From NCBI GenBank assembly GCA_902580225.1, contig CACHJU010000004.1, positions 1 to 64,000 of the forward strand: a stretch of 64,000 nucleotides of DNA, given 5' to 3'. Below are positions 41,355 through 60,715 of the stretch, one piece after another. The notes below the pieces were generated by a model, which saw only the letters and a list, made by a program, of their open reading frames with translations, was not told the origin of the DNA and did no database searches. The stretch's first letter is position 1. Each line of letters starts with the position of its first letter. Made by a program: the position numbers and the translations under genes. The stretch comes from an uncultured Verrucomicrobiota bacterium (GTDB lineage: Bacteria > Verrucomicrobiota > Verrucomicrobiia > Opitutales > Seribacteraceae).

Positions 41355-42338
41355 ATGATACAGGAAATTGGTGGAAAATCTTTTCGGAAAAAAAGTAAAA
41401 AGAACTTGAAGTTCATTGATCTTTTTGCGGGCATTGGTGGAATCCGTCTTGGGATGGAAGCCGCAGGTGGAAAGTGTGTATTCTCTTCAGAATGGGATCC
41501 TCATGCTAAAAAAACTTACAAGCACATGTTTGGTGAAGAGCCCCATGGGGATATCAATGCTATTGACCATGATGAAATCCCTAAATTCGATGTTCTTACC
41601 GCAGGTTTCCCCTGCCAGCCGTTTAGCAGTATTGGTAAACGGGAGGGCTTTAGTCATGAAACACAAGGAACCTTGTTTCATGAGATTTTAAAGATCCTTG
41701 ATCACCATAAGCCATCTGCGTTCATTTTGGAAAATGTTAAAGGGCTCACTCATCATAAAAGCGGGGATAAGGATACCTTGGAAATTATCCACGATAAATT
41801 GGTTGAACATGGTTATTGCCCTCAAATAAAGCTCCTTGATGCATCTAAATTTGGTGTACCTCAGTACCGAGAGCGAATATTTATAGTTGGTTTCAGGAAG
41901 GATGAGCATTTCAGGGCATCCTGGCGTTTTAAATGGCCTGTTGAAAGTGAAGTAACCGCTACTCTTGGTAATGATATTATCCAGTCCGGTGTAGATGGTT
42001 ATTCCATATCCCAGCACCTTCAGAATTCATATATTTATAAAAAGAATGACGGAAGACCTAGAGTACTGATTCCAGGTGATTGTTCTGATATAACTTTGAA
42101 TACCCTTGTCTCGACCTATCATAAAATCCAAAGATTGACGGGAACATTTGTTCAGGATGGACCAACCGGTTTAAGGCTTCTCTCCGTTCAAGAGTGTCTC
42201 GATATTATGGGATTTCCAAGAGGTTTCGATATTCCCGTTTCAAGGACCCAGGCCTACAGGCAGTTGGGTAATTCAGTGGCAGTACCTGTCGTCAGGGAAG
42301 TCGCCCAATCAGTAGCAGCTGCGTTGGCTGTGAAATAA
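41355..42338 (+). CDS. DNA (cytosine-5-)-methyltransferase
   Basis: FIDLFAGIGGIRLGMEAAGG, AGFPCQPFSSIG, ENVKGL, QYRERIFIVG, RQLGNSVAVPV. Confidence 0.95.
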   Translation: MIQEIGGKSFRKKSKKNLKFIDLFAGIGGIRLGMEAAGGKCVFSSEWDPHAKKTYKHMFGEEPHGDINAIDHDEIPKFDVLTAGFPCQPFSSIGKREGFSHETQGTLFHEILKILDHHKPSAFILENVKGLTHHKSGDKDTLEIIHDKLVEHGYCPQIKLLDASKFGVPQYRERIFIVGFRKDEHFRASWRFKWPVESEVTATLGNDIIQSGVDGYSISQHLQNSYIYKKNDGRPRVLIPGDCSDITLNTLVSTYHKIQRLTGTFVQDGPTGLRLLSVQECLDIMGFPRGFDIPVSRTQAYRQLGNSVAVPVVREVAQSVAAALAVK

Positions 42339-42373
42339 GTACTTTTTTTAAGCTTGGCTAGCCTGGAAAGAAA

Positions 42374-42751
42374 TCAGGCACTCAACCATTCCTTTATGCG
42401 GATTTTATATTTCTCTGCAATTTGTGGGAAATTATTCGATTCAATTTCAAGAAAGTTGCTGGCCTCCTGAAGTTGAACTTCAGTCCTATCAACTCCTTTG
42501 GGATAGTTCATTTCGAGGAAGCCAAAAACTAACCCTTTAAAAGAAGGTTCGCCGTCCATTCGAATTGAATCTATGAATTTTATTAAACCTGCCTCATCTG
42601 GTAGTTCAGGCAGGATGTCAGCAGGTAGAGTGTATTCAATTCCGCAGGAGTCATTGATCTTGAATGACCAACCATCTGAGGTTTGATTTGCGTTGAGCGA
42701 GGTGGAGTCTCCACCAGATGCAGTGTTTGTTGTTACTGTTATGATATTCAT
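42374..42751 (-). CDS. Small hypothetical protein
   Basis: 125-aa ORF; acidic; no recognised family. Confidence 0.45.
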   Translation of the reverse strand: MNIITVTTNTASGGDSTSLNANQTSDGWSFKINDSCGIEYTLPADILPELPDEAGLIKFIDSIRMDGEPSFKGLVFGFLEMNYPKGVDRTEVQLQEASNFLEIESNNFPQIAEKYKIRIKEWLSA

Positions 42752-42787
42752 TTATTTTAAGATTCAGGATTAAAAATTAATTATTTA

Positions 42788-43021
42788 CTAGCGTCCAATA
42801 CAATCTCCCCCTTGTGAGATCAGTACAAAGCGGTTGGTATTTTCAGGGAAGTAAGGATTGTTACCAAGTTTGAATATTCCACGTAAGTGTGCCTTCAAGG
42901 ATTTCTGAAAATTCTTTCCATTGAGATTTTTTTGTCTTTCGAAGTAGTGACTCATTGCATTTATACCCGGTTGATTCTTCCGTGGTCGTTTTCTTCTTTT
43001 GTTTTTATTGAAATCGTTCAT
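42788..43021 (-). CDS. Small basic hypothetical protein
   Basis: 77-aa ORF. Confidence 0.35.
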   Translation of the reverse strand: MNDFNKNKRRKRPRKNQPGINAMSHYFERQKNLNGKNFQKSLKAHLRGIFKLGNNPYFPENTNRFVLISQGGDCIGR

Positions 43022-43079
43022 CAGTTGATCTGAAAATGGAGTTTTTATAAATTACTTACGAGATTTAAAAAAATAATAA

Positions 43080-43099
43080 CACTTACTTTTTAGTAATTT
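43080..43099. promoter_or_regulatory. Palindromic operator candidate (TTACT-TTTT-AGTAA)
   Basis: Reverse complement AAATTACTAAAAAGTAAGTG is 18/20 identical to 52742-52761. Confidence 0.6.
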
Positions 43100-43177
43100 A
43101 TGTAATATTGAATCCAACCGGTTTCTAATGTTTTTTATTTGTGCCATTTCAGAAATTATAAATATAACTTTTTCTAA

Positions 43178-43606
43178 ATGGCTGATAAAATATCACCTCA
43201 AAGGCGTTCCTGGAATATGTCCAGAATCAGGTCTTCGAATACGAAACCAGAGATTGCAGTCCGTTCGGCACTGCACCGCAACGGATTCCGTTTTACAGTA
43301 AATGGACCATTAAACAAGAAGTTGCCTGGCAAGCCAGATCTCGTACTGCCCAGATACAGGACAATTATTTTTGTACACGGATGTTTCTGGCATGGACATG
43401 AGAATTGTAAGATATCCAGAATTCCAAAAACAAGGACGGACTGGTGGAAGTCAAAGATCGGGAAAAATCAGGACCGGGATAAGATAGTCAGAAAAACACT
43501 GCTTGAGATGGACTGGAATATTTTAACTATTTGGGAATGCGAAATAAAAGAAGATCCAACCCTTAAAGAGTTAATTCTCCAGGTTAATCAAAAAAGCGTA
43601 AGTTAA
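43178..43606 (+). CDS. vsr: Very short patch repair endonuclease Vsr
   Basis: MSRIRSSNTKPEIAVRSALHRNGFRF, LPRYRTIIFVHGCFWHGHENC. Confidence 0.95.
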   Translation: MADKISPQRRSWNMSRIRSSNTKPEIAVRSALHRNGFRFTVNGPLNKKLPGKPDLVLPRYRTIIFVHGCFWHGHENCKISRIPKTRTDWWKSKIGKNQDRDKIVRKTLLEMDWNILTIWECEIKEDPTLKELILQVNQKSVS

Positions 43607-44969
43607 GCTTCAATTGTATGCGGTCTCCCCTGTGGTCACTTGGGTATGTCCAGCTAAACACATCCCATGTTTTATCGAGTGGGATTGCCATAAGTTTATC
43701 TATATGAGAGTCCCAGGTTTGGCAGATTAGTTCCTCCCCACTTTCCCTTTTCCTCCTCATGAAAATATTTTGTGCAACCTGAAAGCCGTATTTCAAGTTA
43801 CCTTCAGGTTCCCATTGTCCTTTTAGGACCCATTCAGCCAACTTCCGCCTATGAGGTTCATAAGAAATATGAAAGTCCTGTTTGGTATAATTATAAGAAT
43901 TACTTACCATGCCTTCCCAACTACCATACTCCTGGAACTTGCTGAAGTATTCTCCTAACCTATGGGTTTCGGGTAAACCAAGTATTTCCATAAAATCACT
44001 TGCTCTTCTTTCATGGCATGAAACCTGGCTAGCAGTAGAGTTCTTTACCGAAAAAGTAACTTCTTTTTTCGTGTCCCTAATATGAACAGAGCAAATTATA
44101 TCCGTTTTCGCTTTGCCTCCATTAGATAATAACGGAACCGAGTCGGTTGCCACGAGCCTGTCTATTTCACTGCTATCAATTTTTAACTGTCTGGTAATAA
44201 AAGATGCAATCCTGTCAAATTCAGGTGAACCAGATTGGCCATTTTTCTTAAATTCTGTGAGGAGATCGGGTATGTTCAGGATACCAGTTAAGAATTTTTC
44301 GTACCGGTATCCGATTTTTTCGTAACGGCCTGGATCTTCCGTTGCAACATCTGAGCAAAACTCATCAAAATTAAGTTCCTCTGCGGATACAGCTTCAAAA
44401 GATTCCTGTATGTCCTGTTTCTGAAGTATAATGCCTCTTTCGTATTCAAGGAAAAAGGAATCAAGTTCCTCTACCAGCAGAATATTCTCAAACGGGCAGT
44501 ATTGTTCCTTGTTTTTTACTCTGTTTCTAAAGTTAATAAAACTTTGTTCATTCTCACCAATTACAAATAGCGAACTAACCAAACTGTCAGCGAATTCCGG
44601 GCTTTGAAGGACTCCTTCCATATCATAGTAACTTATCTTTCGCCTGTCCTGCCTGAAGGTATTGGAACCAAAAATAATAATTGTTTTCTCATCAATCGTA
44701 TCTACATAAAAATGCGGACAATGTTCGTTTTTGTAGGAATATCCAGTCTTTGCTAAACTACCAACTTCTCCCCAGTTCCGTATAAGGCTTTGTTTTTTAA
44801 GATTATCAAGAATCCAGCTTATTGCCTTTTTGAAGTCCCTGCCAGATTGAGCCTTCGACTTTTCTTGCCTGTCGAGATTAAATTCGTTCTGAGTCATCGT
44901 AATTGCTTTTGGCCCTCCATGCCCAGGAATGAAATGTTTTCGTTTATATTCATGCAACCACATTATCAA
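43584..44969 (-). CDS. Type II restriction endonuclease, MspI-like C-terminal part with ~200-aa N-terminal extension
   Basis: GGKAKTDIICSVHIRDTKKEVTFSVKNS resembles the MspI active-site region (GGSPKTDATIRF...NIKHSS); RRKLAEWVLKG and C-term FSWTYPSDHRGDRIQLK; next to C5 MTase and vsr; real start possibly 44898. Confidence 0.55.
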   Translation of the reverse strand: MIMWLHEYKRKHFIPGHGGPKAITMTQNEFNLDRQEKSKAQSGRDFKKAISWILDNLKKQSLIRNWGEVGSLAKTGYSYKNEHCPHFYVDTIDEKTIIIFGSNTFRQDRRKISYYDMEGVLQSPEFADSLVSSLFVIGENEQSFINFRNRVKNKEQYCPFENILLVEELDSFFLEYERGIILQKQDIQESFEAVSAEELNFDEFCSDVATEDPGRYEKIGYRYEKFLTGILNIPDLLTEFKKNGQSGSPEFDRIASFITRQLKIDSSEIDRLVATDSVPLLSNGGKAKTDIICSVHIRDTKKEVTFSVKNSTASQVSCHERRASDFMEILGLPETHRLGEYFSKFQEYGSWEGMVSNSYNYTKQDFHISYEPHRRKLAEWVLKGQWEPEGNLKYGFQVAQNIFMRRKRESGEELICQTWDSHIDKLMAIPLDKTWDVFSWTYPSDHRGDRIQLKLNLRFFD

Positions 44970-46190: not shown

Positions 46191-49091
46191 GTGGAACAAA
46201 CAATAAAAAGAATTGCTGAACTGCAACTTCAGTACAGCCCCAATGCTACTTCGGCAATGAAGGAGAGGGGAGAGCTTGTAAATAAAACTTTACCCAATGA
46301 ATTAAAGGAAGTGGTAGATTCTTTCGGTAAAGAATATAAAGATCATAAATTTCAAATAAGTGGGCGTGACGGTGCCGGTTTACATGCCACTATCCCGTTT
46401 GTGGAAATAAGAGTACTAAATGGGTTGAATGTAGACTGTGACTTTTATGTTGCGATTTATTTCTCTAGAGACGGTGAGAGAATCTATGTGACCTTTGGTG
46501 CGGATGCTTTAAAGCACAATTTGCACTTACCCAAAAAGAGAAATGAAAGCCAAGCCATTCTTGGGGGAATGCAAGAAATTCTCAGTACGCACAAAATACT
46601 TTCTAAGGATAAAAAAGACTGGTCTCAAAACTTTAAAAGTAAATTAAATCTAAATATTTATTCTAAAGGCACTAGCCTTTCTTTGTACGAAGTTTGTACC
46701 ATTGCTGCCCAGGAGTTTTTCGTTCAGGATCTTGATTTAGAGGATTTTTTGGGATCCATACAGTATGCAATGGAATGCATGATGTGTTTGATCTCTCATT
46801 CTGAAAAAGAGTCATCAGAGACAACCAAAAAAAGTTTTGAAGACTATTTGCTGAGAAATAATAAAACGGGAAGCGGGAAGGCTTCTTCATACATTAGAGC
46901 ACTTTCATTACTTGAGCAGTTGTTAGACCGCCAGCCACAAGGCTTTGAGCATTGCTGTAACATCTGGAAAGTGGAATCAGTTTCAAAATTACATGAGCTT
47001 TATGAATTTGTTCTAATTCAGGCAAAGCAACCTAAGCAGAGTGGCTGGGTTTTTGACGATATTCCTGAAAGTTATCTTGAAAAGGGCTTTTGTAGTGCTG
47101 CATTAAGAGCTTACATCGAATTCAGGTCTTCTTTTGAAGTTCAGCCCCAGCTTTTCTGCCAGCTTGCCCTGCATTATTTACTCGGAGAAAGAGAAAAAAG
47201 TTTTTCCGAACATGGCCCTGGAAACGATTTCCATACTTTTTTCACAGGAGAAAATGAAAAGTACAGTTTTGATAAATTAATGTGCTTTAAACTGGATGAT
47301 CCAGGCCAGGCAGATTTCAAAGAAATAACAAAGGATCTTAAGTTTTTATTGGGTGAAGTTTTTCCATACTTGAGTTCTTTAAACAGATTGGCTCCCCAGG
47401 TTGCTTCTTTTTTTAATTCGAGTGCCTTTTCGGTTGGTAATGATTTATCTATTTATGTTTACCCTTACCTGGACTGTATTAAAGGTCTCCAAAGCTTAGA
47501 GGTATCAGAAGATTTCAAATTAGTTCCGTTTCTTTCCAGTCTGATAAATGCTCAGAATGATTTTAATACTGCAGGTTTCGCTTCTTCTGGGCTAATTAAA
47601 TTTGTATGTGAAAGTGCACTCAAGGAAGCGGGTCCAGGCAGTACAGTTTATGATCCAGCCTGCGGTATTGGAACTGTCCTGATTTGTGCATTAGATCAAA
47701 TTTCTGGAATAAGAGATCTTTATCAAATTTCAGGTTCTGAGATAAACCCCGTATTGGCAAATATAGCTAAAGCCGGATTTTTGCTTAAAGCATTTACAAT
47801 TCGCGACAAATTGGACCCTGTTGTTTTAAACGATTTAATTTTCAGAGTATCACCTAATATCCGCATTGAAGATTCCCTTAAATCCAACCAGCAAGTTATA
47901 AGAGATTTGAGTGAGCATTGGTCGAGTTATAATGAACTTCTTATGTATCCTCCGTACCGCGGCGATCATTTAAATAAGTATGATTATATTATTACTGAGC
48001 CACCTCAAGATGGGGCTGGTTTAAATGAGACTTTTCTCAAATTAGATCATCAACAATTTCTTTTATTCTGTGCATCCCGAAATATTCAAGCTCAACAGTC
48101 GTTGTTGATCCTGTCAGAATCAATCCGTAGGAGTGAAAGAGATGGGCAGCTGAGGGATTTGATGATTAGAAACTTTCCACCTACTGCTATTTATCATGCA
48201 CATGCAGAAAAAAAAGTGATTCTTCATTTTGAAGAGTTCCGCCCTGACAAGTTAATATTTGGCGATATTGCTGATAATAACAACTCAAATGCGGAGAATG
48301 TCCCTCTAGAAATTAGTAATCTAATTACAGCAAGTAAGGACGAAATAGTTTCTGGAAACCGGGAACTTGTATTTTCGAGAGAGACTAAAACCGAGAATGA
48401 ATCAACAAAAGTTAGTTTTGAAAAAGCCCGTCAATACTTTGAGTTTCAAATTGATAAATTCAATGATTTATTAAGAGAGTCCCGTCAAATTCATGACGAA
48501 ATTGAAAATACGAAACAAGAATATCAACCTAAAAGAAAATTGGCTGAGTATTTATCGGGAGGCCAGGGATGGCTGGATGTATCTGGTAGTTCGTTGAAAG
48601 GATTGGACATAGGTTTAATGGAAGAAAGCAAATCCGAAAAGGTTGCTGTTATTGAAGTATTCAGTAACCGCACGAAACTTAAACTACAGAAAAAAATTGG
48701 CCTCATGGAACAACTTAACCGTGAGCATTTAGAGACAACACCTCCATATCAGATCTACTTCGTGCATAATGAGAGAGAAAAAATCGACCCCAGTTTCTTA
48801 TACTATTGGATTAGAGCACAATTGAGCTCAAAAATAGAAAAACAGCTCCGCCGTAAAAGTATTGTTGAAGTGCCAGTAAGAGTAGATTTTTTAATGCATG
48901 AAATTTGTAATCAAAAAATCACAATCCCACCTTTTTATTTACAAGGTACAATTGCCAAATTTTTGCGTAAATTATTTCCTCTTGCTGGAATCAATATGAG
49001 TGGTGGATTTGGACTAAAGATGGGTAGTGGAACGAGTTCTTCCCGCACTCCTCATATCGTTGACATGATAAGGTATTTATTGTGTCTATAA
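46191..49091 (+). CDS. MrcB N-terminal-like (DUF3578) + N6-adenine methyltransferase-like + S-subunit-like C-terminus fusion
   Basis: N-term ...FYVAIYFSRDGERIYVTFGAD; motif I YDPACGIGTVLICALDQ; motif IV position YDYIITEPPQ; C-term NQKITIPPFYLQGTIAKFLRKL. Confidence 0.65.
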   Translation: MEQTIKRIAELQLQYSPNATSAMKERGELVNKTLPNELKEVVDSFGKEYKDHKFQISGRDGAGLHATIPFVEIRVLNGLNVDCDFYVAIYFSRDGERIYVTFGADALKHNLHLPKKRNESQAILGGMQEILSTHKILSKDKKDWSQNFKSKLNLNIYSKGTSLSLYEVCTIAAQEFFVQDLDLEDFLGSIQYAMECMMCLISHSEKESSETTKKSFEDYLLRNNKTGSGKASSYIRALSLLEQLLDRQPQGFEHCCNIWKVESVSKLHELYEFVLIQAKQPKQSGWVFDDIPESYLEKGFCSAALRAYIEFRSSFEVQPQLFCQLALHYLLGEREKSFSEHGPGNDFHTFFTGENEKYSFDKLMCFKLDDPGQADFKEITKDLKFLLGEVFPYLSSLNRLAPQVASFFNSSAFSVGNDLSIYVYPYLDCIKGLQSLEVSEDFKLVPFLSSLINAQNDFNTAGFASSGLIKFVCESALKEAGPGSTVYDPACGIGTVLICALDQISGIRDLYQISGSEINPVLANIAKAGFLLKAFTIRDKLDPVVLNDLIFRVSPNIRIEDSLKSNQQVIRDLSEHWSSYNELLMYPPYRGDHLNKYDYIITEPPQDGAGLNETFLKLDHQQFLLFCASRNIQAQQSLLILSESIRRSERDGQLRDLMIRNFPPTAIYHAHAEKKVILHFEEFRPDKLIFGDIADNNNSNAENVPLEISNLITASKDEIVSGNRELVFSRETKTENESTKVSFEKARQYFEFQIDKFNDLLRESRQIHDEIENTKQEYQPKRKLAEYLSGGQGWLDVSGSSLKGLDIGLMEESKSEKVAVIEVFSNRTKLKLQKKIGLMEQLNREHLETTPPYQIYFVHNEREKIDPSFLYYWIRAQLSSKIEKQLRRKSIVEVPVRVDFLMHEICNQKITIPPFYLQGTIAKFLRKLFPLAGINMSGGFGLKMGSGTSSSRTPHIVDMIRYLLCL

Positions 49092-49116
49092 GTATAATTT
49101 TTAATTTTTTAAATCC

Positions 49117-51015
49117 GTGAGCAAAGATAAAACCGAAAGTATCCAAGCCGAGTTAGAGCGGCTTACACCTAAGCAGCAAATTCACGCATTAAATTCGCTT
49201 CCAAGTAAGTTCGATAAGAACGATTCGTTTCTTCATAGTTTAAAGTTAGGGAAATTTAAAGCTTTTGATGAGCCTCAACTAGTTGAGTCGCCTTTAATTT
49301 CTCTTTTGTATGGTAAAAATAGTGCTGGGAAATCAAGCCTTGTTCAGTCTTTACTCTATCTGAATGAAGCGAGAAAAGGGAATTTTGATGCACATGATAC
49401 GGAACTTGGTGGTGATTCTGTAAACCTTGGAGGATTTTATAATTTTATTCACAAGAGGGATGAAAAAGACAAAGTCCAAATCGATTGTGAGCTAAATATT
49501 CCAGAATTTGGCCGTTGTATCTTAAAATTCGATTTTGGAGAAATCGAAATGGCTAGCACCTCACACTTTACTGACATACCTAAAGGTGCAACTGATTTAG
49601 ATCAAGAAATCATAAACCAGTTTTTTGTTTACAAAAAAGATCCAGAAGTGGTTAAAAAGCTTCTTGGATTAAAACCTGACGAAGAGATCAAAGTTAGTTT
49701 TCAAACTGAACAAAGGGCGAGTTTTGAAAAACAGATTAAGTTACTCGATATATCAGTTGTTTTGGGTGAAGTTGAAATTATAAGCTTCTCCCAAAGTCAC
49801 TTTAGTGAATGTTTCAAAATAAATTTTACTGAGGGTCTTGAAAAAATTGGTCTTAACAAAGAAGACTGGGAGCCTTTTGCAAATTCGCTTCAGGCCAAAA
49901 CTGCTTTTAATAAACTGGTTCCAGAAAATCTTTTTCATAAAAAAATAATGGAAAACGATGGTCCGTTTGATAAAAAGCAGGAGGCGGAACACAAAAGCCT
50001 TCGAAATTTAATAGTACATGGGAAAGATAAAAATCTGTTGGGTAAACTTGGTGGTTTTCTCAGTAAGATTTCAACGGAGTTAGGCGCTGTTCTTGATAGC
50101 TTCAATTATTTTAGTGGGAACAGGGCAATGCCATCACAAAACATTCTGGATGGTTCGTCTGGTACCAAAAGCTCTGGTGATGCGGGAGGAGAAAGATGCT
50201 GGGCGGATATAAAGAAAGATAAAAAGCTGATGGACAGGGTTAATAAATACCTGGGAGATCTTTTTGATAACAGATACCAGCTCGTTCTCATCAAAAGTTT
50301 TTCAGCAGAAATAGCCTCCAAGGTTGCAGGTGAAGCCTTGAGCGAGTCATTGGGGTTAAGTGGAGAAAGTAAGGATGAAGAAGGTGGCAGAGAGGTGTAT
50401 GCAGATGATCATATTGTTGAAGATGAGTCCTTCGAGTATGGCTCACCTGTAAATTCACTTGATCCTGAAGATCTTAAAAGTAAAGTTCTAAACAAATTAA
50501 ATTCTAATAAGCAAGTCCCAGAGTTCACTTCGTTGAGAATTTGGGATAATGTGCCCGATCTACCGCTCAGGCTACAAGACTTGGGCCGTGGTGTAGGCCA
50601 GGTGATTCCAATCATCGCAGCTAGTTGCGAACCTGGCCGCACAATTATCGTTGAGCAGCCGGAATCTGATTTACATCCTAAGCAACAGTCGATTCTTGCT
50701 GATATGCTTATCGAAAATGCAGTTAAGTATGGAACAAGGTTTATTATCGAAACCCATAGTGAATTTTTGCTTCTTCGGCTTTTAAGAAGAATTGGGGAAA
50801 CGGATGCGGATAAATTATCAGACGAAGATAAAAACTATGCCCTCGATGTTGAACAGTTAGGCGTTTACTATGTACACGCTGCCGATCAGGATGAAGGGCG
50901 TACTGGTGTAAAGGTGGAAAGAATGGAAATCTCTCCCAAGGGCCGGTTAAGAAATCCATGGCCAAAAGGTTTTTTCTCGGAAAAGAAAGAAGATATTTTC
51001 TGGCATGCAGGCTAA
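49117..51015 (+). CDS. AAA ATPase of the OLD-like/DUF3696 family
   Basis: Walker A LYGKNSAGKSSLVQ; Walker B IIVEQPESDLHPKQQ; ETHSEFLLLRLLRRI; C-term KGFFSEKKEDIFWHAG. Confidence 0.88.
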   Translation: MSKDKTESIQAELERLTPKQQIHALNSLPSKFDKNDSFLHSLKLGKFKAFDEPQLVESPLISLLYGKNSAGKSSLVQSLLYLNEARKGNFDAHDTELGGDSVNLGGFYNFIHKRDEKDKVQIDCELNIPEFGRCILKFDFGEIEMASTSHFTDIPKGATDLDQEIINQFFVYKKDPEVVKKLLGLKPDEEIKVSFQTEQRASFEKQIKLLDISVVLGEVEIISFSQSHFSECFKINFTEGLEKIGLNKEDWEPFANSLQAKTAFNKLVPENLFHKKIMENDGPFDKKQEAEHKSLRNLIVHGKDKNLLGKLGGFLSKISTELGAVLDSFNYFSGNRAMPSQNILDGSSGTKSSGDAGGERCWADIKKDKKLMDRVNKYLGDLFDNRYQLVLIKSFSAEIASKVAGEALSESLGLSGESKDEEGGREVYADDHIVEDESFEYGSPVNSLDPEDLKSKVLNKLNSNKQVPEFTSLRIWDNVPDLPLRLQDLGRGVGQVIPIIAASCEPGRTIIVEQPESDLHPKQQSILADMLIENAVKYGTRFIIETHSEFLLLRLLRRIGETDADKLSDEDKNYALDVEQLGVYYVHAADQDEGRTGVKVERMEISPKGRLRNPWPKGFFSEKKEDIFWHAG

Positions 51016-51985
51016 AGAGCATCTCTCGATTTTTGGTTTAGATCCTAAGATTTTTATAAATCGAATTGATAGGGATGAGGATGATTTCCAGATCAAAACA
51101 TCTTGGGGTAAATTGGAAGAACGTTTACTTGGGCCTGCTGCAAAAAATCGGACCAGTGAGATTGGTGCTTTGATTTGGGATGCCATTGATGAAGATGGGA
51201 ATCGTTTTTCGAGTTTGGTTATGGAAAATTATGAACTGCTTGAAAATGAGCCAAAAGCAATATTTGATGAGCTTATGCAATCAGGAAGAATAGTTGATGA
51301 GCTGTACAAAGAAGATTCTGAACAGGAAACTTTTGGAATTGTTGCTGAAAGATTAACTTTAAGTGATTTGGAGGAGATAGGGGATGATTGCATTTCATCT
51401 CTCTTGGAAGAAAGTGAATCTTTAAATGGTTTTATCTCATACACCAGTTTCTTTTCAGTCAGCTACACTAGAGAAGATTGGTGGTTGCAGTTTGAGCCTG
51501 ATTACACTGAGTGTAATCTTGATACTCAGTTAAGCGAATTTCGAAACATACTCCTATATTCAGAAGACATTAGTATTTTTGATAGAGAGTGGGAGCCTGA
51601 CAACAAAACTGGCTACTTATCAGTAAATAAGATCTTTGAGCTAATCCAATGCAACCGACTTGACCCCGTTGTAAGAATCCATAGAAAAAACACTGATGAT
51701 TTTCACAATTGGCTTGGTCCTACAAAAGTAGAAGCATTTTGTGATCGTGCAAAAGCTAAAGTAGGTAATGTGAAAGTTAAGATCTATTTTTGGCGAAAGC
51801 AGTACATCCATTTTAGGGCAATATGTTGCAGTTATGGTGGTTATCATTCAAGTTATGGAGTCCAGGAATTTGATGATGCCAGTCAGTTGTACACTCCGAT
51901 TCCTGCGAAGACATTAACGTCCATTCATCATGCTTTTATACCTGACGATAATAATAAAGCATTTTCAGCAATTATGGATGTGTAA
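51005..51985 (+). CDS. Hypothetical protein overlapping the ATPase gene
   Basis: 326 aa; 11-bp overlap with upstream ATPase; no recognised family. Confidence 0.6.
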   Translation: MQAKEHLSIFGLDPKIFINRIDRDEDDFQIKTSWGKLEERLLGPAAKNRTSEIGALIWDAIDEDGNRFSSLVMENYELLENEPKAIFDELMQSGRIVDELYKEDSEQETFGIVAERLTLSDLEEIGDDCISSLLEESESLNGFISYTSFFSVSYTREDWWLQFEPDYTECNLDTQLSEFRNILLYSEDISIFDREWEPDNKTGYLSVNKIFELIQCNRLDPVVRIHRKNTDDFHNWLGPTKVEAFCDRAKAKVGNVKVKIYFWRKQYIHFRAICCSYGGYHSSYGVQEFDDASQLYTPIPAKTLTSIHHAFIPDDNNKAFSAIMDV

Positions 51986-52018
51986 GTATGTGGATTTACA
52001 TTTTTATATACTAATTTA

Positions 52019-52642
52019 ATGCCTAAAAGTATTTCTACACAACTGAAGTCTTTAAATCTAATTTCAGGCGAAAAAACTATAAATGTTTTTGATAACCTGT
52101 TTAAAAATATTCTTAAAAAAAAGATCACTTCTAGTTCGGGTTTTATAAATACAAGTTGTAAGCAGTTTAAAGCAAGCCCTGCATACAACTCTAAAAACTA
52201 CAGTCTTAATGGTAATGTTTTTGAAGGTCTGCTTGCAGTCCTTTTTTACCGAGTTGGGATTTACCCTCTATTCCGTCAGGCGAAAATGGCTTTTATTCCA
52301 AATATCGAATTCGATTTTGTGGCATATTCAAAAGAGATAGGGCCAATAGTACTTTCGGCCAAAACTTCCCTGCGGGAAAGGTATAAGCAGGCAGACCTGG
52401 AAGGGATAATGATGAGGCAGGTTCACCGTCGTGCGAAGTCTTATCTTCTGACCTTGGATGAAGATGAGGCAATGAATGTTAATTCTAAGATTAAGGAGGG
52501 GAAGGTGCTTGGCATTGACCGTGTGTATGTTGCCTCTGAGCCAGAGTTTGATGATCTTGTTGAGGAGTTGAAAAGCTGGACTCTTATAGAGCCTCAAGCC
52601 GAGCCTGTAGTCGAAAGTAGCAGGATTATCAGGCCTTCCTGA
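52019..52642 (+). CDS. PD-(D/E)XK-type restriction endonuclease-like protein
   Basis: 207 aa; NVFEGLLAVLFYR...IEFDFVAYSKEIGPIVLSAKTSLRERYKQADLEG fits E...D-X(n)-xAK core. Confidence 0.6.
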   Translation: MPKSISTQLKSLNLISGEKTINVFDNLFKNILKKKITSSSGFINTSCKQFKASPAYNSKNYSLNGNVFEGLLAVLFYRVGIYPLFRQAKMAFIPNIEFDFVAYSKEIGPIVLSAKTSLRERYKQADLEGIMMRQVHRRAKSYLLTLDEDEAMNVNSKIKEGKVLGIDRVYVASEPEFDDLVEELKSWTLIEPQAEPVVESSRIIRPS

Positions 52643-53310: not shown

Positions 53311-53538
53311 AGGTGAGGTCAAAAATACAGGCTAGACCACAGGTTGCACATATGTTGCGGAAGAAAGTGCAATCGCGGAATGCATGCAGGAAGTCAAAGG
53401 GTAAGCGGGTGTACAAAACAGGAAGGGATATTTCCTGAGGTGAGGATTTTCAAAAATATTTTAAAAGGCCTGAAAATGTCAGGCATGAAACCACTAATGG
53501 ATGGTTGCCGAATCCCTTTTATTTTTAAGAGTGGCGGT

Positions 53539-53730
53539 CATGGTCCGGGATTGGGGTACCGTGTGGACGGTGCAGTCGTTGCAAGGGCATTTTTGCCTGA
53601 ATTCGCGACAAGTCAGGTAGTACCCAGTTACGACAGATACCTTACAGCTATCTATCGTAACTCTACTACCCTTCTACTACCACTGGAAGTCTGGAAGTTT
53701 TCTGGACGCAATAGGCCATCCCGGATCATG
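53539..53730 (+). ncRNA. Candidate retron msr-msd ncRNA
   Basis: a1 CATGGTCCGGGAT (53539-53551) pairs with a2 ATCCCGGATCATG (53718-53730), 13 bp incl. one G-U; msr-type hairpins ACCGT-GTGG-ACGGT (53558-53571) and GGCA-TTTT-TGCC (53586-53597); long msd hairpin 53617-53669; RT ATG 33 nt downstream. Confidence 0.78.
53617..53669 (+). other. Predicted msd stem-loop
   Basis: GTAGTACCCAGTTACGACAGATA / loop CCTTACAGC / TATCTATCGTAACTCTACTAC, near-continuous ~20-bp stem. Confidence 0.8.
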
Positions 53731-53762
53731 CCGTCCAATCTATTTTGCGGAGGTACGAAATA

Positions 53763-55742
53763 ATGAAGGAGGAGGAGTTGAACTTTATTAGAACCTGGGG
53801 AACTTTGCTTTGTTCAACCGAGCGGAGATTAAAGGAATTAGCCTGGGAGCTTGCGGATGCAAGAAGGTACAAACAGTTTGCGATTCCAAAGTCTAATGGA
53901 GGGCTGCGGATAATTAGTGAGCCGATTGATTCTCTAAAGGAGATTCAGCGTTTGTTGCTTGTTATTATGGAAAGGTCATACGAGCCACTCGGGAATTCTC
54001 ATGGTTTTATTTCACGGCGTAGCATACTCACGAATGCAAAGCCGCATGTCCGGAAGCCCTGGGTTTTTAATACTGATATAGAAAAGTTTTTTCCGACAAT
54101 ACGAATGGAAAGAATCAAACAGGTACTATCCGATATAAGGTTGAAATTTCTACTCGATGTTCCAGGTAATCAAAATGCAGTCACTTTTAAAGAGGTAAGA
54201 TTGAGTGCAGAGATTGTATCATTGCTTGCGAATCTGTGCTGTTTCCGACAAGTCGAGGGTAGTGACGATCCAGAAAGCTGGTATGGTTTGCCACAGGGGG
54301 CACCTACATCTCCGATATTATCAGATATGGTAGCCCGAAAAATGGATGAGGACATACTCAGCTTTTGTGCGGATAGGGGTATTGAATATACCAGGTATGC
54401 GGATGATTTATCTTTTTCCCCTTTGGATCCGAAGGACTACTATGGGTACAAGCAATTAATTGTTGGGAGAGTTTCTAAAAACCCTGAGCTATGGACGGAA
54501 TTGAAGGAAATTATCAATAGTTATGGATTCCGTATTAACGCCAAGAAAAATAAATTGTTTTGTGGGAAGTCATGTAAGCAGGTGACCGGACTTTCAGTAA
54601 ATGAATTTCCTAATGTTCCAAGGAAGGTCATTCGTTCGATTCGACAGGATTTATATCTTTGGGATAAGCATGGGCACGACCGTGCAAATGATATTATTCA
54701 TGAAAGAAAGAATTACCGTCATAAAAAATGCCCTAAGCGTTTGAAGAATATGCTTCATGGTAAACTTATGTTCTTGTCTATGGTAAGAGGGAAGGGTGAT
54801 CCTGTTTATTTGCGGTTTGTACGTCGGTTTCAGGAATTGGAGAAACGGGATATGCTGAATTCATCCAGCGGGAATTTTTCCTGTAAATGGAGCCCCGTTA
54901 ATATGTGGGATGCAAACAGTAACTGGATGTCTCAGGCAGGAAGTGAGGAGATGAGATTCAGGGTAAACCTCGAGGATTTCCCTAGGCGGTCGGCCAAGCA
55001 CTTTGGTGACAGGAGAAGAATTTTTCTTCAAAAATCAGGGGATTTACGTGGCATGCTTAGAACCGAAGTGGGTGCCTGGGCGTATGAGCGTTTGCAGCAT
55101 ACTTTTAATCTACGGCAAAACCTGATGGATGAATTTACTTATGATCCATTTGTAAAGGGTGGTAAATGCCTACTTGAATATATGCTGGAAGCAGAGGCGT
55201 CTTACTTGCATCTTTTACATGATGAATTGATTGAAAGTCAGGCACATGATGCGTGGAGTGCGTTGTTCTTTCGACTCATGGAAATTAATGGAAATACTTG
55301 TTCAACAAAACTTTTGGATCCTGCATTCCGATGCCATATGGAGCATATCGACTGGGGTACTTTTTTCCGTCATCAAAATGACGAGTTTCTTTCTAAGCGG
55401 TATGGTTATGAAAAATTTGATCTTAATGATTTGTTAAGCATTGCGTCATCCCCCAAAAGGCGGGTAACACCAACATCTTCGCTTATGCTTTGGACTGCCT
55501 TGGCACCCATGGCCCTCAATACAAAGGACGAGGGTTTAGGTTCGCACCGTAAATTATTCCAACAGACTTTGGAGGATACTCCTCATTTTTTCCCACTTTT
55601 TGATGATGTGCTTACAAGTTGTGGCAGAACACGAAACGGGAACCCGCCGAGCTTATCCATGCACACTATGAGAAAAGGTATTTTTACTTTCATAAAAGCA
55701 TTTGGAGCAAAGCCTATTCATAAACAACTAGCACTTATTTAA
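53763..55742 (+). CDS. Retron reverse transcriptase with ~300-aa C-terminal extension
   Basis: NAxxH (SILTNAKPHV), LPQGAPTSPILSD, YTRYADDLSFS, VTG (QVTGLSVNEFPNVPRK); ATG 53763 with GGAGG upstream (track start 53745 is an in-frame TTG). Confidence 0.93.
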   Translation: MKEEELNFIRTWGTLLCSTERRLKELAWELADARRYKQFAIPKSNGGLRIISEPIDSLKEIQRLLLVIMERSYEPLGNSHGFISRRSILTNAKPHVRKPWVFNTDIEKFFPTIRMERIKQVLSDIRLKFLLDVPGNQNAVTFKEVRLSAEIVSLLANLCCFRQVEGSDDPESWYGLPQGAPTSPILSDMVARKMDEDILSFCADRGIEYTRYADDLSFSPLDPKDYYGYKQLIVGRVSKNPELWTELKEIINSYGFRINAKKNKLFCGKSCKQVTGLSVNEFPNVPRKVIRSIRQDLYLWDKHGHDRANDIIHERKNYRHKKCPKRLKNMLHGKLMFLSMVRGKGDPVYLRFVRRFQELEKRDMLNSSSGNFSCKWSPVNMWDANSNWMSQAGSEEMRFRVNLEDFPRRSAKHFGDRRRIFLQKSGDLRGMLRTEVGAWAYERLQHTFNLRQNLMDEFTYDPFVKGGKCLLEYMLEAEASYLHLLHDELIESQAHDAWSALFFRLMEINGNTCSTKLLDPAFRCHMEHIDWGTFFRHQNDEFLSKRYGYEKFDLNDLLSIASSPKRRVTPTSSLMLWTALAPMALNTKDEGLGSHRKLFQQTLEDTPHFFPLFDDVLTSCGRTRNGNPPSLSMHTMRKGIFTFIKAFGAKPIHKQLALI

Positions 55743-55744
55743 TT

Positions 55745-56134
55745 ATGATTAATTCGACAAAAAATACTGGATGGCTTTCGAAGAAGCCAAATACAAATCA
55801 CTTGGGTAAGGCGACCCATTCCGAGAGGGACCTGGTAGAGAGCACTTTGAGCTTACCTGGGCGGGTTCATGTAGTGGGAGATCTTGTTGAGCATGAAAGC
55901 GGATTTTCGAAACGGGAGCTGGTTATCTTGACTGACGATTATAGACCATCCCTTATCAGGTTTGAATTCCTGAACAAGGCCGCTGCTAGCCTGGATGGAT
56001 TGGTGGAAGAAGAAAAGGTGAAGGTAATCTTCCGGATTGAAGGCAGGGAGTGGAATGACAAGGTTTTGAATAATTTAATTGGCACTCAAGTTGATAGAAT
56101 CAGCGAGCAAGTGATCAAAACGGTACAGAATTAA
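55745..56134 (+). CDS. DUF3127-like OB-fold (putative ssDNA-binding) protein
   Basis: GFSKRELVILTDDYRPSLIRFEFLNKA...VKVIFRIEGREWNDKVLNNL matches DUF3127 pattern; starts 2 nt after RT stop. Confidence 0.65.
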   Translation: MINSTKNTGWLSKKPNTNHLGKATHSERDLVESTLSLPGRVHVVGDLVEHESGFSKRELVILTDDYRPSLIRFEFLNKAAASLDGLVEEEKVKVIFRIEGREWNDKVLNNLIGTQVDRISEQVIKTVQN

Positions 56135-57095: not shown

Positions 57096-59219
57096 ATGGA
57101 CGAATCAGCTGCAGATATTATTCAATCGGTTAAACCCATTTATCCAGAAGGCTTAATTAACTGGATGGGCAATCGCGAGGGCGGCGTACGAATACCATTT
57201 CAAAAATCTTCTGGTCGGCCAAGTGGTGAGCAAATTGAAACGCCGTTAGTGAACAAATTGAACAGATGGGCGGCTGCTATTGCTAAAGGGGAAGAAGTTC
57301 CAAGAAATATAATCCTAGTCGGAGGTCCGGGAAATGGGAAGACCGATACTATTGAGGGGTGTATTGAATCTCTGGATTCAGAGATGGGTGCGGAGGGAAA
57401 GCTATTGGAAGCTTTTGAGAAAAAGTTTATCACTGAAGGTGAAGATTTGGCTCCCAGACGGGTTGATGTTGAAATCAAGAAATTAGGATTAAAGAAACCT
57501 CCTGAAAACATAGGCTCAATCATTCTAGTTCAGGACGCAACGGCCAACGATCCAGTCGCTGGAAAAAGTGCAGCCAGCCTCTTGTATGAGGAACTGGAAA
57601 CACTTTTAAATGCTGATTCGAAGGATATATATCTGTGCTGTGTGAACAGAGGGATTTTATCGCAGGCTGTGGCGATAGCATCGGGTCAGAATAGCAAGGC
57701 CCAGAAGCTTGTTTCTTTAATGACAAAAGCAGTCACAAGCAGTGCAGAGCCACCATCTTGTTGGCCGCTTGATGGATATCCTCAAATTGGCATATGGCCA
57801 ATGGATGTGGAGTCTCTTGTTTTTACTCCAGCAGGAAATGTAAAAACAGTTGCACACCAGATAATCTCGGCAGCTGTGGATAAGGAAAAATGGCCAGAAC
57901 CTTGTGAATCAGGTAGCAGGTGTCCATTTTGCCAAAACAGAAAATTACTCGAAAAAAGCTCTAATCAGGATGGGCTGGTTTCAATACTGCATTATTACGA
58001 GCTTTCATCAGGCAAGCGTTGGACATTCAGGGATCTGTTTTCTTTGATTCCATACATTATAGTCGGGGATCTAAACGAATTTGAGATAAAGGGTAAAAGG
58101 TTCAGCCCTTGTGAATGGTCAGCACAGCAGTTAAAAATAGCGAATGAGGGGCCAGCTGGTAGTCGGGAAAGAGTTTTGGCCCCTTTTCTACTTGCATCAC
58201 GCCTGTATTATCATCGCCTATTTCCGGTGTGGCCGTCTTTTAATAAAGGAGATTTCCTAAAGGCAAAACGTGAACTACTCAAATCTGGACAGAAAGATGA
58301 AGGTCTGCAAGCAGGAGCGGATTTATTCAAATTTTTCGCGGCTTCCGGGAAACTTTCAAGGATTTCGGGTGGAGAAATAATGGAGCGGGTTTGCGATAGT
58401 TTATGTCCAAACCTGGACCCTGGTAATATCACAGGTGAGCAAGTGTTGATTGAAAGAAATGGAGAGGGAATTACCATTGCAGATATTGAGAGTGATTTCA
58501 GCTTGTCCGTTAAAGATGGCCTGGAGGGTGTTAAGTTTCAGGTCGAGCAATTGGAGCGGGATATTCTCAAATTAGTTGCAAAAGCGGATGAATCTCTGAC
58601 GGAGGATAAGTTCCCCAGAAATCATTCAAGAAAGTGCCGCTTACTCCAGATTACGGTCAGGCAATTTTCATCCAGGCTGGTTAAACGCAGTTTGGGGACA
58701 AGACTGGGAATATGCAGCGACTCCATTCATTTTAAAGGTTATATAAATAAGGTCATGAACGGTGACGACGGTTTAAGCGAAGTCAGGAAGGCGATGAAGC
58801 TTTTAATTCACGAATCAAATTCATTTAAAGCAAACCTTGCTACAACCTTTGGGCAACCAATGGCAGAACGTTCGAGGGAAATATCCCTTATCATTGAAAG
58901 AACAATTAACCCTAAGCCATGTTCATCCGAATTAACATGTGAGTCGCGGCCTAAGGAGTCATTTTCTTTTCTGAAGATAGAAGGCCATTTTGTGCCTGTT
59001 ACTTTTCAACTTTATAAGGCCTTGCAAAATATAAAAGATGGGCTTCTTCAGGCCTCTCTTCCTAATGAAATTTTTTCTATGCTGGATTTGATAAAAGCTC
59101 TGGTATCTGGGAAGGTCGTCCGTGATAAAGACTACTTGCAGGAAGACGCAAAGATCGTAGTTGGCCGCAACAAAGAAAAAATATCTTTCTCGAATGGTAA
59201 GTTTTACTTTCTGAAATGA
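57096..59219 (+). CDS. Large P-loop ATPase (possible DptF/DndF-like role)
   Basis: 707 aa; NIILVGGPGNGKTDTIEG Walker A; SIILVQDATAND; CPFC; WTFRDLFSLIPYIIVG. Confidence 0.75.
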   Translation: MDESAADIIQSVKPIYPEGLINWMGNREGGVRIPFQKSSGRPSGEQIETPLVNKLNRWAAAIAKGEEVPRNIILVGGPGNGKTDTIEGCIESLDSEMGAEGKLLEAFEKKFITEGEDLAPRRVDVEIKKLGLKKPPENIGSIILVQDATANDPVAGKSAASLLYEELETLLNADSKDIYLCCVNRGILSQAVAIASGQNSKAQKLVSLMTKAVTSSAEPPSCWPLDGYPQIGIWPMDVESLVFTPAGNVKTVAHQIISAAVDKEKWPEPCESGSRCPFCQNRKLLEKSSNQDGLVSILHYYELSSGKRWTFRDLFSLIPYIIVGDLNEFEIKGKRFSPCEWSAQQLKIANEGPAGSRERVLAPFLLASRLYYHRLFPVWPSFNKGDFLKAKRELLKSGQKDEGLQAGADLFKFFAASGKLSRISGGEIMERVCDSLCPNLDPGNITGEQVLIERNGEGITIADIESDFSLSVKDGLEGVKFQVEQLERDILKLVAKADESLTEDKFPRNHSRKCRLLQITVRQFSSRLVKRSLGTRLGICSDSIHFKGYINKVMNGDDGLSEVRKAMKLLIHESNSFKANLATTFGQPMAERSREISLIIERTINPKPCSSELTCESRPKESFSFLKIEGHFVPVTFQLYKALQNIKDGLLQASLPNEIFSMLDLIKALVSGKVVRDKDYLQEDAKIVVGRNKEKISFSNGKFYFLK

Positions 59220-60715
59220 AAATAGAAGATTTTATAAAGAAGCCTTTTTCCAATGATTGCCATGAATATGGATGCAGCTTGTTGGACATTTCGCCTAAAC
59301 CAGAATATGCAACTGGTGAGGTAGTCCTTGCATCTACATTAAGACGAATTGGATTCTCTGAATCTGGAGTCTCAGAGAAAAAAGTCTATTCCAATGGTAC
59401 AAATCTTGAAAAGAATCTTCGAAAGCAAAAACGGCCTAATATGGAAGAGGGTGCAAGTTATGTAGGTTTTGACCTGTGGGATTCTATAGTGCATGAAGCG
59501 ATAAAAAGCCCCAAGAAACCTCAGCAATCAGAAAGCAGATTTTTGCAGATTAGCCCTCTTGTCCCTGATGCCTCTTTATACTCTTCAACAAGTCGAGTCC
59601 GTGGTAATTCTTGGAATCCAGGTAGCTTGGTAGAAAAAATAGTTATTTTGGGATCTGAAGACGATGCCGCTGCAAATAAGAACTGGAAAGAGTTTTTTAA
59701 TGCTTTAAGCGTTGGTGAAAATGATGATGTCTGGGCCCGGTTTCTCCAAATGGAATTTACTGCCTGGAGGTCTGAAAAAAACATCAAGTGGACAGAGCCA
59801 TCGAAACTGAAAGCCTCTCAATTCAGCAATAAGTTTCTCTCAAAAGAAAGTCAGATACCTGCACAACAGTTTGTGTCAGATCTTTTGAAGATCATTGAGT
59901 TGAAGGATTATCTTACCAGAAGGCAATGGATAAGTATGATCGAATCAATTTTGAGAGTAGGGTCAGCTACGCATGTTCTGTGGCTATGCCGTGCTAATGA
60001 AAAATGCTTTGATCTGATTTACAACTTACTTGAAGGAGGGGAAGTTAAGAAGGATTTCAACTTGAATGAAATTTTTGCGGGGGGAGCTGGATTTTGGAGG
60101 TATGGTCAGCTTGCATACAATACGATTAATGATCTGGCTTCAGGCTTCATGCGTTCAAGGTTGGGAATTAATTTGATTATTTTGCATCTTAAGGAAGCAG
60201 GCTGTAAAGTTAGTGATAAGTGCTTAAGCGACGAGAAGAGCTTTGCCCAATTCCTAAAACAGATCGAATCCTTTCGTGGAAAGATTAGCTTTAAAGATTT
60301 CCGTGAGTCTTTTCAGAAAGCACTTGAGATTAATAAGAAAGAAATTGGTAAATCCAAAGTAGTTGAGTTTGTCAGAAGTGTTCTTGGCCAGAGGCAAACG
60401 AATGAGCATGGTCTGGAGAGCTATGATCAAGGGTTTTATCTTGGGAAAAAAGGAGACTACCGATCTTCTCCCTGGATTGTGTCCATGGGACCTGTTGCGG
60501 TAATCTCAATTGCTTATGCATGTACAAGTTTGAAAGACGGACCCGCTACTATCGACGATTTTTGTAATCATTTGAAAAATTATGGAATAGTTGTGGATGT
60601 TGAGGAGGTAGGCCGAAGTGGAATTGGAGAGACCTTAAGGAACCTGGGTCTGGTATTGGATAGTCCAGATGCTGAGGGTGGCATGATTATTATAAACCCT
60701 TTCAACCGCTCCTAG
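59216..60715 (+). CDS. Hypothetical protein (possible DptG-like position)
   Basis: 499 aa; ATGA overlap with upstream ATPase gene; no recognised motif. Confidence 0.65.
   Translation: MKIEDFIKKPFSNDCHEYGCSLLDISPKPEYATGEVVLASTLRRIGFSESGVSEKKVYSNGTNLEKNLRKQKRPNMEEGASYVGFDLWDSIVHEAIKSPKKPQQSESRFLQISPLVPDASLYSSTSRVRGNSWNPGSLVEKIVILGSEDDAAANKNWKEFFNALSVGENDDVWARFLQMEFTAWRSEKNIKWTEPSKLKASQFSNKFLSKESQIPAQQFVSDLLKIIELKDYLTRRQWISMIESILRVGSATHVLWLCRANEKCFDLIYNLLEGGEVKKDFNLNEIFAGGAGFWRYGQLAYNTINDLASGFMRSRLGINLIILHLKEAGCKVSDKCLSDEKSFAQFLKQIESFRGKISFKDFRESFQKALEINKKEIGKSKVVEFVRSVLGQRQTNEHGLESYDQGFYLGKKGDYRSSPWIVSMGPVAVISIAYACTSLKDGPATIDDFCNHLKNYGIVVDVEEVGRSGIGETLRNLGLVLDSPDAEGGMIIINPFNRS

Follow-up and report, generated by a model that had tools for sequence, protein, structure and literature searches.

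A probable retron in an uncultured Verrucomicrobiota bacterium with an orphan domain fused to its reverse transcriptase

Retrons are anti-phage elements that make a small RNA-DNA hybrid, and they are defined by an effector that is held in check. A scheme of 13 retron types has been drawn up (as given in PMC12548924), and three of them join the reverse transcriptase (RT) and the effector in a single gene in a way that invites comparison with the locus described here. These are type I-C, to which the RT-Toprim fusion of Retron-Eco2 (Ec67) belongs, type XI, in which the RT is joined to a trypsin-like protease, and type XII, in which it is joined to a TIR domain. The Toprim domain of Retron-Eco2 is toxic on its own but not as part of the full-length protein, and a phage nuclease may act as the trigger (PMC12405507). 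Other RT-effector fusions, with HisKin-conflict, Mrr, Schlafen/AlbA or AAA modules, are unclassified. Retron-Eco8 has an OLD effector, and its trigger is a phage single-strand DNA binding protein (SSB) (PMC13158370).

The locus lies in a stretch of 64,000 nucleotides (the window) from an uncultured Verrucomicrobiota bacterium. It is in all probability a complete bacterial retron and appears to represent a new effector variant among such elements. All of its features are on the forward (+) strand. A candidate retron ncRNA of 199 nt (msr-msd; 53535-53733) is followed by a gene for a 659-aa RT protein (53763-55742) and by a gene for an SSB-like DUF3127 protein (55745-56134). The RT start codon at 53763 lies 32 bases past the inverted repeat a2 and is preceded by GGAGG. 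The arrangement of an ncRNA with a1/a2 repeats upstream of a single RT-effector gene is shared with Retron-Eco2, and a1/a2 repeats also lie upstream in those type XI relatives that have trypsin domains. No second copy of the RT was found in the host genome, which is 67% complete.

By its sequence family, motifs and modelled fold, the RT domain (residues 1-360; 53763-54842) is of the retron type. The PADLOC family RT-Protease_XI matches it best (3.2e-93), followed by RT-TIR_XII (1.5e-79) and RT-Toprim_I-C (1e-67), and Pfam RVT_1 matches as well. Alignment with relatives indicates that the NAXXH motif of region X (NAKPH, 54033-54047; N91, A92 and H95), the catalytic YxDD motif (YADD, 54396-54407; Y212-D215) and the VTG motif of region Y (54582-54590; V274-G276) are intact. 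In a structure model for which 46 RT relatives were used, confidence is high across most of the RT (85-98 in the majority of blocks) but not past about residue 370, and the 18 best PDB fold matches found with Foldseek are all retron RTs. Retron-Eco2 stands first among these and is the best PDB match by sequence as well; its RT is about 22% identical to the window RT in the structural alignment. When placed in a tree alongside 171 relatives, the window RT forms a lone long branch (1.62), and its best identity to any relative is 38% among the matches listed.

The RNA upstream of the RT had been recognized in the original prediction, which described the order a1-msr-msd-a2, and this order proved right in view of the fold, the family, motifs and fold of the RT, and the same architecture in related RTs. 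The a1 repeat CATGGTCCGGGAT (53539-53551) and the a2 repeat ATCCCGGATCATG (53718-53730) lie at exactly the bases given there and form 13 base pairs, one of them G-U. The minimum-energy fold lengthens this closing stem to 18 bp with two bulged U residues, as 53535-53537 pairs with 53731-53733 and 53553-53554 with 53716-53717. The two short hairpins and the msd-like stem-loop of about 20 bp that had been proposed were also recovered by folding. The first msr hairpin (53556-53573) is predicted to have 7 bp (GUACCGU-GUGG-ACGGUGC), and a covarying hairpin is found at the same place in relatives. The second (53575-53609) is predicted to contain an inner hairpin GGGCA-UUUU-UGCCU (53585-53598), so that the window RNA would have two msr stem-loops where Retron-Eco2 has one. 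The long msd hairpin (53616-53670) is predicted to have 22 bp in four interrupted helices (7+8+5+2). Folding also yielded an 8-bp hairpin (53689-53707) before a2, a second msd hairpin that had been absent from the original prediction. The GGGG at 53553-53556, just 3' of a1, is present as described, and its position makes it the putative place of the branching G. The context of the branching G is usually TAGC, with the variants CAGA, CAGC, GAGC and ACGC (PMC6868368). None of these five motifs lies directly 3' of a1 in the window RNA, where G residues occupy 53553-53556. A promoter search gave sites only at the level of shuffled sequence, and none could be assigned.

The same architecture is the rule upstream of the RT relatives, in which a strong repeat pair of about 11-20 bp spans about 100-250 nt. 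An a1/a2 score of at least 28 was reached in 58% of about 98 RT relatives and in 1% of shuffles (Mann-Whitney p 2e-30). Relatives in Cyanobacteria, Chloroflexota, Pseudomonadota and other groups have in common an msr hairpin CCRUUGU...GCGAYGG followed by AAGGUUAGCUUUACG. In the first msr hairpin of the relatives 93% of cells are paired, all five pairs (5/5) show two-sided changes, and covariation is 0.79 compared with 0.36 after shuffling. Near relatives keep a1/a2 and msr and differ in msd. Divergence of msd with a1/a2 and msr conserved is expected for retrons. Six cyanobacterial RTs that do not have a long C-terminal extension show near-identical a1/a2 and msr and an msd that varies by strain.

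How far the window RNA shares this ancestry was approached with covariance models and a motif. Covariance-model searches, proposed as a check in the original prediction, turned out negative: the Rfam scan of the 64-kb window returned nothing at gathering scores, and a model built from the msr of 26 relatives did not match the window RNA. The latter model is a weak tool at such divergence, since it had little reach even among other relatives. A motif trained on the second msr element of the relatives has its best intergenic site at 53582, where CAAGGGCATTTTTGCC (53582-53597) falls inside the predicted msr hairpin 2. The score of this site (10.1) ranks 30th of 127,970 positions, which gives P ~0.013 for the msr region, and CAAGGGCATTTTTGCC agrees in 14 of 16 bases with one relative (L105) that carries CAATGGCAATTTTGCC at the same place. 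Because the covariance model of the relatives misses the window RNA, the argument for RNA homology is made by architecture together with a single short motif (P ~0.01). The window RNA is likely homologous to the msr of the relatives, with architecture carrying the case and sequence lending it little. No close homologue of the window RT and RNA in which covariation of the 53539/53718 and 53617/53649 stems could be followed was found, the best RT being 38% identical.

It is conceivable that the pairing and hairpins arose by chance, and a single 13-bp pair is reached in about 1 of 60 shuffles of a larger stretch of 480 nt. In the intergenic stretch itself (53439-53762), however, a1/a2 has a strength of 31.3 compared with a shuffled mean of 20.1 and a maximum of 28.3, so that none of 300 dinucleotide shuffles equals it. 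Folding, which had been suggested as a check, gave -87.9 kcal/mol for the 199-nt RNA (z -6.5), with none of 200 shuffles as low, and the GC-corrected fold energy is below that of all 798 windows of the same size on both strands of the 64 kb. The structure also stands in the right place and on the right strand beside a retron RT, and chance is considered exceedingly improbable. Alternatively, the fold could be the by-product of a small protein gene. A frame of 95 codons (53476-53763) spans the entire ncRNA as far as the RT start, with intermediate codon use and a weak coding signal. Codon scores of 0.07 within the RNA and 0.02 over the whole ORF, compared with 0.09 for the RT gene, lend such a gene some support. 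Against it, the ORF has no Pfam relative, the frame terminates at the RT start codon, and folds with a z of -6.5 and a long-range 13-bp closing stem are unusual for protein genes, none such occurring among the sampled windows, which are mostly genes. Moreover, RNA of the same kind is found at the same place in RT relatives. The open frame is probably due to chance, and a small gene as the source of the fold is very unlikely. About equally improbable is a third possibility, namely that the RT is a defence-associated RT (DRT) or that of a diversity-generating retroelement (DGR) or a group II intron and that the RNA is some other template RNA. The RT does match Drt2 (3.1e-8) and group II RT (2.1e-16) weakly, as is expected for any RT, but its E-values for the retron families are better by tens of orders of magnitude, the NAKPH (NAXXH) and VTG motifs are retron-specific (PMC6868368), and the best 18 fold matches are those to retron RTs noted above. 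The presence of the retron motifs in the RT was the reason for discarding a DGR.

Neither the C-terminal part of the RT protein nor the SSB-like gene had figured in the original prediction, and together they are what is most unusual about the locus. Residues 361-659 (54843-55742; 299 residues and the stop codon) form an orphan domain that is presumed to be the effector, given that known effector domains occupy this place in relatives. Codon usage is alike in the two parts of the gene (0.087 for residues 361-659 compared with 0.090 for the RT part), which argues that the fusion is a normal gene. Searches of Pfam (E up to 10), PADLOC, NCBIfam and the PDB gave no match to these residues, and no relative was found in plasmids, phages and viral contigs or in 394 genomes of the phylum and 390 of the class (samples partly overlapping). 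Two candidates were rejected: a short match in L003 belongs to an unrelated reading frame, and a match in L180 (54% over 35 residues) is taken as chance because it lies antisense to a uvrA-like gene. Structure models of the domain are of low confidence, with a mean pLDDT of 37.5 when it was modelled alone and 30-58 per block in the full-length model; both contain helices only, at a confidence too low for use. No catalytic motif is recognizable in the domain.

The defining effectors of the three closest types were each sought. For type I-C, the PADLOC and NCBIfam matches extend no further than about residue 365 and the low-confidence models contain no Toprim sheet; none of the searches identified the C-terminal domain as Toprim, in contrast to that of Retron-Eco2. 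Type XI is the closest PADLOC family and a single-gene effector fusion as well, but the window RT has no trypsin domain (no Pfam match to a trypsin-like protease in 54843-55742, E up to 10), is at most 38% identical to any relative among the matches listed, and is accompanied by an msr that has diverged beyond the covariance model of the relatives. Type XII, also a single-gene fusion, is the second closest RT family and differs in its TIR domain, to which no Pfam match was found in 54843-55742; the NCBIfam TIR retron model covers only the RT, with a score of 238 against a cut-off of 600. Since the defining effector of each was sought and not found, the window retron cannot be filed under type I-C, XI or XII.

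Fused, swappable effectors are the rule in this RT clade. The C-terminal regions of 52 relatives were scanned, and these held trypsin-like protease (16), HisKin-conflict (6), TIR (3) and Mrr (2) domains as well as Schlafen/AlbA and AAA. Beyond the modules of types XI and XII, the clade (L020-L179) includes members with HisKin-conflict, Mrr nuclease, Schlafen/AlbA and AAA modules and several without a Pfam match. The unclassified fusions thus resemble the window gene in belonging to the same RT clade, with the C-terminal module swapped between members, and differ from it in that none has its C-terminal domain. Because fused, swappable effectors are habitual in the clade, the domain is best read as another one, a putative effector unlike any found in the databases and genomes sampled.

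The DUF3127 gene was identified by matches to Pfam DUF3127 (5.2e-13) and to a PHROG single-strand DNA binding protein (4.9e-12). It begins two bases after the RT stop, so that co-translation of the two genes is likely, and it sets the locus apart from Retron-Eco2. As SSB is the trigger of Retron-Eco8 (PMC13158370), the neighbour is at most suggestive of a role in the retron. Retron-Eco8 resembles the locus in that its msDNA is linked to single-strand DNA binding proteins (PMC13158370); it differs in that the SSB is that of the phage, whereas the SSB-like gene of the window is encoded beside the RT, and in that its effector is unrelated to that of the window. The DUF3127 protein may protect msDNA or tune the trigger, a guess from its adjacency and from the Eco8 analogy. 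Relatives of the protein were not found in viral contigs, plasmids or phages.

This neighbour allows a different division of labour, in which the locus is still a retron but its C-terminal domain is an extension with a structural task, in assembly or RNA binding, and the part of effector falls to a neighbour, for instance the product of the SSB-like DUF3127 gene or of another gene downstream. The proximity of the DUF3127 gene to the RT fits such a scheme, as do the helices-only models of the C-terminal domain and its lack of a known relative or catalytic motif. On the other hand, a C-terminal addition is usually an effector in the RT clade, and no DUF3127 homologue was detected beside the RT relatives. 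In the family, 19 of 44 genomes carry homologues of the protein (about 30% identity), with no RT gene in the one neighbourhood that was read. We therefore regard a structural role for the domain as rather doubtful.

It is quite likely that the locus is a retron with its effector fused to the RT, in which msDNA and RT cage the C-terminal domain until a phage trigger appears. The RT would use a guanosine immediately 3' of a1 for priming and begin to copy beside a2, passing first through the hairpin at 53689-53707 and then through the long one at 53616-53670 as far as its foot. The product would be a branched msDNA of roughly 100 nt. By analogy with Toprim in Retron-Eco2, the C-terminal domain would be silenced by msDNA together with the RT, and a phage activity that attacks or binds msDNA would release it. 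The released domain would then stop or kill the infected cell. A bolder and, on balance, unlikely proposal is that the locus represents a new retron type, a deep and isolated lineage of RTs whose acquired effector has a fold unseen in other immune systems and which works with its own single-strand DNA binding protein guarding msDNA to sense phage interference.

The region is a defence island. Genes of an ordinary type II restriction-modification system (41355-44969), a C5 cytosine methylase and an MspI-type endonuclease in opposite orientation, mark it as such. A group at 46191-52642, perhaps a further multi-gene defence system, encodes a 966-aa protein in which a methylase-like part is joined to one that is type I specificity-like, an AAA ATPase similar to proteins of the NsnB/AbiLi type, and two smaller proteins, one of 326 aa and one of 207 aa that is BsaWI-like. 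Two overlapping genes at 57096-60715 are a candidate for an uncharacterised two-gene system. One encodes a 707-aa ATPase-like protein, which contains GGPGNGKT and matches AAA_19 and SspF weakly, and the other a 499-aa protein that belongs to no family; the pair recurs together in two genomes of the family, with 35-40% identity for the 707-aa protein.

Because the window RT is far from the RTs in use, the msr-msd may be an orthogonal source of ssDNA for genome editing. The SSB-like gene behind the RT would allow the shielding of msDNA and the triggering of the system to be studied. The fusion of an RT to a domain that has no known relative leads directly towards a new immune effector activity and can be studied with a single gene and a single RNA.
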